Part shown: piece by piece, positions 5,101 through 55,261 of the stretch
Layout: every line of letters begins with the position of its first letter
Numbering within the stretch: position 1 is the first letter of the stretch
Assembly (NCBI RefSeq): GCF_000495475.1
Contig: NZ_ASGZ01000012.1
Coordinates: forward strand, 1 to 58,425
Direction of reading: 5' to 3'
DNA length: 58,425 bases
Source: Candidatus Halobonum tyrrellensis G22
GTDB taxonomy: Archaea; Halobacteriota; Halobacteria; Halobacteriales; Haloferacaceae
Notes under the pieces: generated by a model
What the model saw: only the letters and a program-made list of their open reading frames with translations
Database searches by the model: none
Told to the model about the DNA's origin: nothing
Made by a program: the position numbers and the translations under genes

Positions 5101-6513
5101 TCAGTTCGCGCCGTCGCGTTCCTCCGGTTCGTCCAACTCGTCCACGAGTTCGCCGCCGTAGCCCACGTACGTCGCGGGGGTGAGCGCGTTCAACTCCTCC
5201 CGCACCGACTCGGAGACGTCCAACTCCGCGAACAGGTCGCGGAAGTCGTCGAGCGTCGTGCGGCTCCCCCTCGTCAGTTGCTTCACGCGCTCGTAGGCGT
5301 CGGTGTCGCCCTCCCGTCGGAGGACGGTCTGGACCGCCTCGCCGATCACTTCGGGGTTGGATTCGAGGTCGTCGCGCATGACGCGCTCGTTCGGCGTCAC
5401 CTTCGAGAGCCCCGCGTCGGTCTTGGTGTAGCCGATCAGACAGTGGGCGAGCGCCGCGCCGACGTTCCGTTTGACCGTCGAGTCCGAGAGGTCCCGCTGG
5501 AGCCGCGAGGTGGTGACGTAGTCCGCGAGGAACGTGAGATCCGAGTTGGCCTTCGAGAGGTTCCCCTCGCTGTTCTCGAAGTCGATGGGGTTCACCTTGT
5601 GGGGCATCGTCGACGACCCCGTCTCGCCGTCGACGGTCTCCTGTCCCAGATAGCGGTCGGAGACGTACAGCCACATGTCGCGGTCGCAGTCGAGGAGGAC
5701 GTTGTTCGCCCCCCGGAGCGCGTCGAAGAGGGCCGCGAGGTCGTCACACGGATTGACCTGCGTCGACAGCGGCGTGTGCTCCAGCCCGAGCGACCGGACG
5801 AACGACGCCGAGAACCCGCGCCAGTCCACGTCGGGGTAGGCGGCGCGATGGGCGGCGTACGTGCCCGACGCGCCCGCGAGTTTGCCCGAGAGGCCGTCGG
5901 TCGCCTCCGACACCCGCCCGAGCGCGCGGCCGAGGCGGGCGGCGTACACCGCCGCCTCCTTGCCGAACGTCGTCGGCGTCGCGGGCTGACCGTGCGTCCG
6001 CGCGAGCATCGGCAGGTCGCGGTGCTCCCGCGCCATCGCGGTCAGGGCGTCGCGCACCTCCCGCAGCGCGGGCACCAGCACCGACTCGACGGCGGGCCCG
6101 ACGAGCAGGCGCTGTGCGAGGTTGTTCACGTCCTCGCTGGTCAGCCCGAAGTGGATCCACGGGTGGACCCGCTCGGGGCTCCGGGTTCGGAGGAAGTACT
6201 CGACCGCCTTCACGTCGTGGTTGGTGGCGTCGTACCCCTCGGCGCCCTCGGTCTCCAACCGCTTGACCAGGCGGGCGTCGTCGGCGCCGAACGACTCGTA
6301 ACAGTCGCGGAGGTCCGAGCGCTCGGCCTCCGAGAGCGTCAGGTCGACGCCGTCGGCCTCGGCGAGCGCACACAGGTACTCGACTTCGACGCGGACGCGC
6401 GCGCGGACGAGCGCCGCCTCGCTCGCGTACGGGACCAGCGGCTCCGTCCGACTCGCGTACCGGCCGTCGAGCGGCGAGACGGCCGCGAGCGGGTCGTCGC
6501 GGGGGAGGTTCAC
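5101..6513 (-). CDS. purB: Adenylosuccinate lyase
   Basis: Acts twice in purine synthesis: SAICAR to AICAR plus fumarate, and adenylosuccinate to AMP plus fumarate. 470 aa, fumarase/aspartase superfamily. The signature loop GSSTMPHKVNP with the catalytic Ser is present, as are TSEDVNN and ARTHGQPATPTTFGKE with the catalytic His. The start is a GTG at 6513 (MNLPRDDPLAAVSPLDGRY); the upstream AACGACTTTCCCC on the minus strand lies about 28 bp away and could be its TATA region. Divergent from purN-purH across a palindrome-bearing gap. Confidence 0.96.
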   Translation of the reverse strand: MNLPRDDPLAAVSPLDGRYASRTEPLVPYASEAALVRARVRVEVEYLCALAEADGVDLTLSEAERSDLRDCYESFGADDARLVKRLETEGAEGYDATNHDVKAVEYFLRTRSPERVHPWIHFGLTSEDVNNLAQRLLVGPAVESVLVPALREVRDALTAMAREHRDLPMLARTHGQPATPTTFGKEAAVYAARLGRALGRVSEATDGLSGKLAGASGTYAAHRAAYPDVDWRGFSASFVRSLGLEHTPLSTQVNPCDDLAALFDALRGANNVLLDCDRDMWLYVSDRYLGQETVDGETGSSTMPHKVNPIDFENSEGNLSKANSDLTFLADYVTTSRLQRDLSDSTVKRNVGAALAHCLIGYTKTDAGLSKVTPNERVMRDDLESNPEVIGEAVQTVLRREGDTDAYERVKQLTRGSRTTLDDFRDLFAELDVSESVREELNALTPATYVGYGGELVDELDEPEERDGAN

Positions 6514-53032: not shown

Positions 53033-55129
53033 TTGTTCGTCCGAGCGAACTCACCGGCCGATGGAGGCGCTGGGGGGTGGAGTCGACTGATCGCGTTCTC
53101 CGACGTCGGGGGGGACCTGGTGGTGCGCGACGACATCGAGGACGCCGTCCTCCGACTCGACGCCGACGGGCCGCGCGCGTCGGCGTCCGCCGACGCGTTC
53201 ACCTTCCCGGTCGAGTCGGCGTGCCGCGTGCGGACCGACCGGGTGGCGTTCTACCAGTCGTTCGTGCTCTGCGTCCACGAGGGGGGTGACCTCGTCGAGA
53301 CGACGGCGCCCGACGAGACGGTCGACCTCGGCCCGGGCACGTACGAGTTCCAGGTCACCGCCGCGCCGATGAAGCTCTACCTCCGCGCGGAGGGGCCGCT
53401 CCGGGTGGTCGACGACGGCCGGCGGACCGAACTGTCGTTCGACGGCGACCGCGACGTCTCTGTCGGCGCGCGGTCGTTCCACATCCGGCCGGCGGGCACC
53501 GTCACCGTCCCCGAGACGCCGCGGGGGCTGATGCGCGCGGTGTCGACGTTCGGGTCGGCGCTCGCGACCACCTCGCCCGAGCGGTCGTTCCCCACCCTCC
53601 GCGGGCACCCGCCGCTGGTCGCGTTCGGCGACGAGGTGGCGGTCCCCGAGTTCGCCGAGCCACCCGACACCGGCGTCGAGGTGGTCGTCCCCGACCGCTG
53701 GAACGACGTGTACACGGTCGCGACGCTCGCGTACTACCTCGGCGCGACCGTGGTTCCGGGCGACGAGCCGGCGGTGTGCGCCGCCGGGCGGTCGTACCCG
53801 CTCGACGCCGACCCGCTGTTCGAGTCGGTCCAGCGGCTGCTCGAACACGCGTTCCTGCTCGACTGTGTCGTCCGGACCGAGGGCTTTTACGACGTCGACC
53901 TCCACGAACGGGCGGCCGTCGAGCGCCGGGTCGACATCGACCCCGAGCGGCTGTACGACCTGCCGCTCGACGAACGGCTGGCGGCGTACTTCGACGTGCC
54001 GGTCGACCCGCTGTCGGACTTAGTGGGGTGGCACCTGACGGCCGACGTGGAGCCAACCCCCGAGAGCGCCGAACTCCTCCCGTTCGTGGTCAACGACATG
54101 GCGTCGGTCCGCGACCCGTCGACGGTCGACCACGGCGACTCCGCGGCGGGCGACGACTCGATCGAGTCGTTCTTCCGCGCGGGGTCGGACGCCGACGGCG
54201 GCGCGGGCGCGAACGAACGCGTCGTCTCGCCCGCGCGGACGGACACCTCCGGACACGTCTGGGTCGGCGACGGCTACCCAACCGGCGCGTCCAAACCGAC
54301 GGTCGACGCCTACCGCCACCGCCTCGACCAGCGGGCGTCCGACTCGGCCGTCATCGACGTGACCGTGGTCTGTAACGAGGCGTCGATGCGCGAGGAGACC
54401 GAACGGCTGTACGGCTTCCGCGACCACCTGGAGTTCGACATCGACGTCGAACTCGACCGCTCGACCGACGAGTTGCGCGCGCTACTCGCGGAGGAGCACG
54501 ACCTGTTCCACTTCGTCGGCCACGTCGACCCCGAGGGGATGAAGTGCCCCGACGGCCACCTCGACCTCCACACGCTGGAGTCGACCGGGGCGAAGGCGTT
54601 CTTCCTCAACGCGTGTTCGTCGTACGACCAGGGGATGCAACTCGTCCGCGCGGGCGCCATCGGCGGGCTGGTGACGACCAGCGACGTGGGCAACATCATG
54701 GCGACCAACGTCGGGCGGACGATGGCGCGGCTACTCGACTACGGGTTCGACCTCCACGGCGTCCTCGACGTGGCCAAGCGGGTCCACGTCGTCGGCGGGT
54801 CGTACTCGGTGGTGGGCGACGCCGGGGTGACGCTGTGTCAGGCCAACAGCGGGACGCCGACGGCCCTCGTCGTGAACACGCACGACCAACCCGCTCCCGA
54901 CGTAGTCGAGTTCGACCACGCCGTGTACACCACTCGGAACTTCGGGGTCGGGAGCCTCCTCGCCGACTGGTTCGAGGAGGACGGCACCCAGTACGTCGTC
55001 GGCGGGGTCACGCCGCACCACCGGGTCTCTCGGGAACAGTTCGAGGAGGTCTCCGAAGGACGACGGTACCCGCTTCTCGTCGATTTAGAACTCCGCTGGT
55101 CGGACGAACTCGACTTCGACTCGCTGTGA
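53033..55129 (+). CDS. CHAT-like (caspase-like) protein of haloarchaea, start uncertain
   Basis: 698 aa if read from TTG 53033. The first 450 residues contain beta-rich material (TFPVESACRVRTDRVAFYQ, TAAPMKLYLRAEGPLRV) and an alpha-rich middle with RLLEHAFLLDCVVRTEGFYDVDL. From about residue 440 the fold is CHAT-like: H493-F-V-G-H497 and, after a strand, FFLNAC528SSYDQG and GAIGGLVTTSDV, the order of the His-Cys protease dyad; FFLNACSS replaces the usual LSAC.T. Other starts exist (GTG 53120, 53123), and ATG 53061 at the best TATA distance is out of frame beside a G6 run. It abuts a 43-aa gene on the other strand. No TPR or NACHT domain is seen. Confidence 0.75.
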   Translation: MFVRANSPADGGAGGWSRLIAFSDVGGDLVVRDDIEDAVLRLDADGPRASASADAFTFPVESACRVRTDRVAFYQSFVLCVHEGGDLVETTAPDETVDLGPGTYEFQVTAAPMKLYLRAEGPLRVVDDGRRTELSFDGDRDVSVGARSFHIRPAGTVTVPETPRGLMRAVSTFGSALATTSPERSFPTLRGHPPLVAFGDEVAVPEFAEPPDTGVEVVVPDRWNDVYTVATLAYYLGATVVPGDEPAVCAAGRSYPLDADPLFESVQRLLEHAFLLDCVVRTEGFYDVDLHERAAVERRVDIDPERLYDLPLDERLAAYFDVPVDPLSDLVGWHLTADVEPTPESAELLPFVVNDMASVRDPSTVDHGDSAAGDDSIESFFRAGSDADGGAGANERVVSPARTDTSGHVWVGDGYPTGASKPTVDAYRHRLDQRASDSAVIDVTVVCNEASMREETERLYGFRDHLEFDIDVELDRSTDELRALLAEEHDLFHFVGHVDPEGMKCPDGHLDLHTLESTGAKAFFLNACSSYDQGMQLVRAGAIGGLVTTSDVGNIMATNVGRTMARLLDYGFDLHGVLDVAKRVHVVGGSYSVVGDAGVTLCQANSGTPTALVVNTHDQPAPDVVEFDHAVYTTRNFGVGSLLADWFEEDGTQYVVGGVTPHHRVSREQFEEVSEGRRYPLLVDLELRWSDELDFDSL

Positions 55130-55261
55130 TTACGGGCCGTTGTTGGCGCTGGCGATCGCCGCCGCGTTACTCGCGCTCGCGAGTAGCATGCACATCGTGA
55201 ACACGATACCGCAGGCCTTCGGGTGCTCCGCGAGGTACGCCTTGATGGGGTTGTCTGACAT
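55130..55261 (-). CDS. 43-aa hydrophobic peptide, conserved haloarchaeal type
   Basis: Translation: MSDNPIKAYLAEHPKACGIV at 1-20, a hydrophobic stretch with FTMCMLLASASNAAAIASA, and the end NNGP. I recall similar haloarchaeal peptides of 40-45 residues with an AEYLAEHPR-like N terminus, a short helix and a GP end, but I cannot name the family with certainty. ATG 55261 to TAA 55130; the last base touches the CHAT-like gene's stop on the opposite strand. Could be a membrane-active peptide, a protease substrate, or a lipid-anchored factor; nothing is proven. Confidence 0.7.
   Translation of the reverse strand: MSDNPIKAYLAEHPKACGIVFTMCMLLASASNAAAIASANNGP

Follow-up and report, generated by a model that had tools for sequence, protein, structure and literature searches.

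Two genes of Candidatus Halobonum tyrrellensis G22 meet tail to tail, one encoding a large protein of the CHAT protease family and the other a hydrophobic microprotein of 43 residues. What has such a microprotein to do with a protease? The pair lies on contig NZ_ASGZ01000012.1, analyzed here over its full 58,425 nucleotides (the window). The CHAT open reading frame (ORF), as given in the ORF list, occupies 53033–55129 on the forward strand and encodes 698 residues from a putative TTG start. The microprotein is read from the reverse strand (55130–55261) with a gap of 0, so that the two stop codons directly abut (TGA followed by TTA). Near the homologous N-terminus of the CHAT gene the only in-frame starts are TTG at 53033 and GTG at 53120 and 53123, and we are unsure which of them is used. 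A sequence-only reading of this DNA had placed the ORFs, the adjoining stops and the HFVGH and FFLNACSS motifs correctly, and had proposed a module of a CHAT-like protease or sensor and a membrane-active or regulated peptide. Comparison across Halobacteria upholds the family assignment and the module, and shifts attention from the membrane segment of the peptide to its last few residues.

The convergent gene pair

In Halobacteria the convergent pairing of CHAT gene and microprotein is nearly obligate. The CHAT protein is found in 131 of 145 sampled genomes and DUF7503 (PF24335), the Pfam family of the microprotein, in 120. CHAT similarity identified 108 distinct loci, and at 95 of them a DUF7503 gene converges on the CHAT gene within 150 bp, the commonest gaps being 0 (35 loci), -4 (18) and -17 (7). 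When loci are drawn from DUF7503 matches instead (41 peptides), a convergent CHAT gene is present at 40/40, with gaps of -23 to +260 in 39 and of 992 bp in one. A chance arrangement is excluded. A final tally finds a convergent microprotein at 164 of 188 catalytically intact CHAT genes and at one of six motif-less ones, a rate biased upward because all distinct loci are counted, including those drawn from DUF7503. Pairing holds for multiple paralogs within one genome, across many genera and on plasmids, while the other neighbors vary. Of the four CHAT paralogs in the genome studied here, two face a convergent partner that exceeds the DUF7503 cut-off, and another has a weaker DUF7503-like one. 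Two genomes without any DUF7503 match (G048 and G072) contain only broken or shortened CHAT genes (L213 and L216 in the former, L212 and L217 in the latter), which suggests joint loss.

Copy number varies locally on both sides of the pair. Two near-identical DUF7503 copies stand in tandem beside one CHAT gene at L140 (genome G012). Tandem CHAT paralogs, two to three in a row and with no microprotein detected, occur at L085 and L100 (Haladaptatus), which share the same downstream sequence, and at L187 (G023).

The microprotein itself behaves as a genuine protein. The 43-residue ORF matches DUF7503 at 1.6e-12 (47.2 bits against a cut-off of 27), and 132 peptides conform to the pattern YL..[HN]P[RK]M.GVLFT..LLL[ST]QAG..AA, followed by a variable tail and a terminal Gly-Pro. 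In the window the [HN]P[RK] motif reads HPK (55217–55225, reverse strand); its proline is kept in 132/132 peptides, and the next position is Arg or Lys in 129 of them, with Gln or His in some. The motif is N-terminal to a single hydrophobic segment, delimited by sequence and family pattern (55157–55213), and the tail spans 55133–55162 on the same strand, its final Gly being conserved in 127/132 and its Pro in 123/132. The pN/pS ratio (nonsynonymous to synonymous differences) is 0.33 in frame versus 1.6 and 2.1 in the shifted frames, and 14 different codon pairs encode the terminal Gly-Pro. To judge from this coding pattern, the microprotein is under purifying selection at the protein level. 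A frame artefact or antisense ORF is ruled out by pN/pS together with variation at third codon positions. Peptide distances correlate with CHAT distances (r 0.54). The 60 bp upstream of the peptide are AT-rich, and many loci have a stretch resembling a TFB-recognition element and TATA box (BRE/TATA) about 25–36 bp before the start, judged by eye rather than by a motif test and less clear in the window copy. These features suggest that the microprotein usually has its own promoter and leaderless transcripts.

The larger partner is, on the strength of its predicted structure, a CHAT protease of the clan CD caspase/gingipain/separase fold, with proteolytic activity predicted. Its sequence finds no match in Pfam (at E 1), NCBIfam or the PDB sequences, and Pfam CHAT (PF12770) matches only 6/15 relatives, at best with 4e-5. 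The AlphaFold (AF2) model is confident (predicted local distance difference test 91.9; predicted template modelling score 0.92) and finds relatives in the PDB by Foldseek (1e-6) and by VIA (Z up to 18.7). Model residues from about 315 to 586 (54029–54844, forward strand) align with gingipain R (Z 18.7, root-mean-square deviation 3.2, 236 residues aligned), separase (17.3), gingipain K (16.7), DdvA (16.2), SAVED-CHAT (15.9) and the TPR-CHAT protein of Craspase (14.8). In an alignment of 95 relatives at 31–64% identity, both histidines of HxxGH and the cysteine of LNAC are invariant (95/95). These include the predicted catalytic pair that the sequence-only reading had singled out, H497 (54521–54523) in the HFVGH motif (54509–54523, beginning with H493 at 54509–54511) and C528 (54614–54616) in FFLNACSS. 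An acidic residue stands 23 residues past the cysteine in 88/95 relatives and is D551 in the window (54683–54685); its position suggests an S1 acid by analogy with separase, rather than from a superposition. Such an acid would suggest a preference for Arg or Lys at P1. The model also shows an N-terminal all-beta domain (residues 1 to about 144; 53087–53542), whose best match when folded alone, a mutarotase-like beta-supersandwich, reaches Z 7.7. This is the level of chance matches, and the domain is not assigned to any fold.

The Gly-Pro tail and its carriers

The tail extends beyond the reach of the DUF7503 profile. At 40 CHAT loci without a DUF7503 match, 16 of 125 convergent ORF ends are Gly-Pro, versus a background of 1.0% (P 4e-13). 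Soluble basic proteins ending KR[VI]STY[GR]GP occur at six loci (L180–L183, L190, L211), and other hydrophobic microproteins ending STSTGP at two (L176, L177). In a genome without a DUF7503 match, the intact CHAT loci mostly have divergent hydrophobic microproteins that end in Gly-Pro or a close variant. In genome G123 (L207–L227), where CHAT has 11 matches and DUF7503 none over the cut-off, several of the partners end in Gly-Pro plus a few residues (GPREP, SGPTNP, KGPSNP).

The clearest exchange of carriers is found within Haloplanus. Each of 12 species has one CHAT gene, at the same locus and overlapping its convergent partner by 4 bp (gap -4) in all, and the microprotein N-termini are similar. 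Three species retain the ordinary membrane form, e.g. MSESDSGTVAAYLNDNPRMMGVLFTMLLLLSQAGTVAASNGGGISGP. In the other nine the membrane segment is lost and the protein has 2–14 tandem tails, e.g. (TADGNSGGISGP + Y/F/S) x 13, with copies undercounted in one array that contains masked bases. Neither the [HN]P[RK] site nor any Lys or Arg within the repeat units is present in these forms. Differences between units are nearly confined to third codon positions (counts of 0, 0 and 11 for the three positions in the 13-unit array). The tree of the CHAT proteins requires at least two switches between the two forms, forced by well-supported branches. At the DNA level the arrays are coding repeats of 39 bp lying 3′ of the CHAT gene (L192–L203), with a copy number that depends on the species. 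The variation in length is possibly driven by slippage.

Taken at the level of sequence, this strongly indicates that the working unit of the microprotein is its C-terminal tail of about 10 residues ending in Gly-Pro, and that the rest is an interchangeable carrier: Gly-Pro is kept across unrelated bodies, and within Haloplanus the hydrophobic segment is exchanged while the tail remains. The loss of the anchor goes together with multiplication of the tail, which fits a need for a high local concentration of tails. A membrane-active peptide at the core of the system, as the earlier reading had it, is not supported by this comparison, since the Haloplanus repeats and the soluble forms beside remote CHAT paralogs do without the segment.

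Possible roles of the tail

Because the tail persists while everything else changes, it should be the part in contact with a partner, and no partner other than the CHAT protein is universal. We tentatively favor a reading, somewhat short of an even balance of belief, in which the tail is a ligand of the CHAT protein, displayed multivalently by the anchor or tandem array, and the protease is thereby tethered and probably activated. The genetic basis of this scheme is a conserved convergent pair in which both products are conserved as proteins and the peptide usually has an AT-rich upstream region of its own. The carrier would be either a single helix that sits in the membrane and probably associates with itself, or a soluble tandem array, and would gather tails; the CHAT molecules gathered with them would either be switched on by proximity or be held at a site. 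Input might come from the KaiC-like DUF7504 protein encoded upstream at about half of the loci and, in some lineages, from a HalX response regulator. The spacing of the genes suggests that the two transcripts may additionally pair or interfere with each other through overlapping 3′ ends. Activation of the caspase type works by proximity. A precedent for activation through assembly is a SAVED-CHAT protease whose solved structure is an 'activated filament' (PDB 8tl0). SAVED-CHAT and the TPR-CHAT protein of Craspase (Csx29) share with the haloarchaeal family the CHAT fold, the catalytic dyad and a dedicated partner or activated assembly (PMC10028731). In contrast to these systems, the haloarchaeal partner is a tail carrier of 40–200 residues, no CRISPR link is seen, and no Cas effector, SAVED or TPR domain is found in the Pfam scan or among recurrent neighbors (roughly gene-called). 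It is possible, though somewhat more doubtful than the favored reading, that this amounts to a novel mode of protease control. The Gly-Pro tail would be a multivalent ligand of modular design for the assembly of a caspase-like enzyme in archaea, and valency would be reached by membrane self-association or by covalent tandem repetition, two routes that replace one another and have been swapped repeatedly.

Several observations weigh against tail-driven assembly and activation. The basic residue before the membrane segment predicts an N-inside/C-outside topology, under which the tail and a cytosolic CHAT protein would be kept apart. No CHAT domain co-varies with the tail beyond overall divergence (partial r 0.12 or less), and mapping the tail to one domain by distance correlation was given up on account of these weak partial correlations. 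One repeat form makes do with two copies, which shows that high valency is dispensable. In the final tally 24 intact haloarchaeal CHAT genes have neither a Gly-Pro-ended nor a DUF7503 partner, a few of them having convergent microproteins with altered ends. Finally, the evidence from the genes would suit an inhibitor roughly as well as an activator.

In that inhibitory alternative, the tail would act as a pseudosubstrate or blocking inhibitor that keeps the protease off, in the manner of securin, and its loss or removal would free the enzyme. We consider this unlikely, though it is the foremost of the competing explanations. Separase is among the best structural relatives; the pairing is near-obligate with intact proteases and not with motif-less ones; and separate promoters would permit control of dosage. 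The likeness to separase and securin extends to a clan CD protease whose second part is pseudo-protease-like and which has a dedicated partner (Z 17.3 to 12.9). It ends with the absence of a sequence match for the CHAT protein, the absence of any evident cohesin role, and a partner that is tiny, Gly-Pro-tailed and convergently encoded. The 24 partnerless genes count against an inhibitor as well, and a simple inhibitor needs neither tandem copies nor a membrane anchor.

Slightly less probable again is that the microprotein is a substrate of the CHAT protease, cut for instance after the basic residue of [HN]P[RK] so as to free a tail-bearing part or an N-terminus. The fold is closest to the Arg/Lys-specific gingipains and to separase, the likely S1 position is acidic in most relatives, and the site itself is nearly always basic. 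However, the Haloplanus repeat forms offer neither the site nor a basic residue in their units, some peptides have Gln or His in its place, and the basic residue may merely set topology. Gingipains are secreted proteases. Gingipain R is the closest fold by Z, with both subdomains of the gingipain R/K type covered, but no export signal is visible in the haloarchaeal CHAT protein, and its N-terminal domain is different.

That the tail is instead a secreted peptide signal, the remainder serving as a signal-peptide-like leader and tandem copies raising output as in pheromone precursors, is improbable. A basic residue, a short hydrophobic core and A-x-A before the tail do resemble a leader, and the tail is variable and multiplied in Haloplanus, but no signal sequence is visible in the repeat forms and some soluble forms, the leader is conserved well beyond what a signal peptide requires, and the protease carries no visible export signal. 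The dispensability of the hydrophobic segment makes both this reading and a pore-forming toxin unlikely.

The toxin version, a membrane-damaging peptide released or restrained by the protease in a defence or cell-death module, is still less credible. It draws on a lone hydrophobic helix in which small and polar residues are conserved, and on the part that CHAT proteases play in conflict systems, CRISPR among them (PMC10028731, PMC10907252). The dispensable helix speaks against it, and so does the broad, largely chromosomal distribution of the pair. The involvement in defence or cell death that the sequence-only reading had entertained gains no footing: IMG/VR and phage records contain no relatives, on which ground a virus origin was also rejected; PADLOC has no family for the window protein, with a single weak and isolated match among 15 members (JAB, 0.0025); and no defence neighbors are seen in the survey of recurrent neighbors around CHAT loci. 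Bacterial gasdermin systems, which combine a protease with a membrane protein, resemble the pair in outline, but here the hydrophobic part is dispensable and no gasdermin is seen. Type I toxin-antitoxin systems have a small hydrophobic peptide and a convergent, antisense-prone layout; here the partner is a protease rather than an RNA, and the membrane segment is absent at 9/12 Haloplanus loci and several paralog loci, on which ground this type was rejected. Least plausible of all are mere convergent neighbors without physical interplay, kept by chance or by linkage in slowly rearranging genomes, given that pairing recurs across paralogs, genera and plasmids while other neighbors change and that the Gly-Pro end is kept across unrelated bodies.

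Setting, novelty and distribution

CHAT proteases with partners are already known, whereas a convergent microprotein module with an exchangeable anchor and tandem tails is undescribed in the literature searched; that search, thin on subscription journals, returned no paper on DUF7503, DUF7504, haloarchaeal or Haloferax CHAT proteins, or a CHAT protease with a microprotein. Pfam lists neither DUF7503, of which the window peptide is a member, nor the frequent upstream family DUF7504 (PF24336) with a function. If the favored reading is correct, a widespread archaeal pathway built on a caspase relative would have an identifiable partner, and the swap of anchor for tandem tails inside one genus would be a natural evolutionary experiment on protease assembly. 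For Haloferax volcanii, published work describes a caspase-like activity tied to salt stress but assigns no gene to it (PMC3615174). The CHAT/microprotein module, present in Haloferax species, could include the source of this orphan activity, and its presence there makes the question testable. The link is only a candidate one, since the predicted Arg/Lys preference would not match the Asp substrates of that activity.

DUF7504 is encoded directly upstream of the CHAT gene, on the same strand, at 60/116 loci. Its profile finds only KaiC among its best PDB matches, weakly (E 0.03), and the alignment lacks the Walker A loop, so that the protein is likely a degenerate RecA/KaiC-like sensor, as far as profile comparison can tell. 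In the genome studied here DUF7504 is multi-copy, occurring in seven places, and one copy only adjoins a CHAT gene. A HalX response regulator is encoded upstream of the peptide at 13/75 loci. In the window a Pfam scan identifies TrkA/TrkH potassium genes on either side of the pair, from which a possible link to ion stress had earlier been drawn. Comparison of neighbors across loci confines this arrangement to the window and the nearest relative genome; it is a matter of local synteny, and a connection to K+ uptake is not supported.

The protease is carried by 25 haloarchaeal plasmids. In both plasmid records examined the microprotein has no listed gene: on two Halorussus plasmids (L204, L205), convergent Gly-Pro-ended peptides at 5222–5359 and 6025–6162 are absent from incomplete gene tables. 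Outside the Halobacteria sample but within the same phylum, four genomes have a single CHAT relative, with the peptide in 0/4. Three of these four relatives (L169–L172) lack the exact HxxGH/LNxCxS pattern, and all four loci share a neighborhood of large conserved ORFs.
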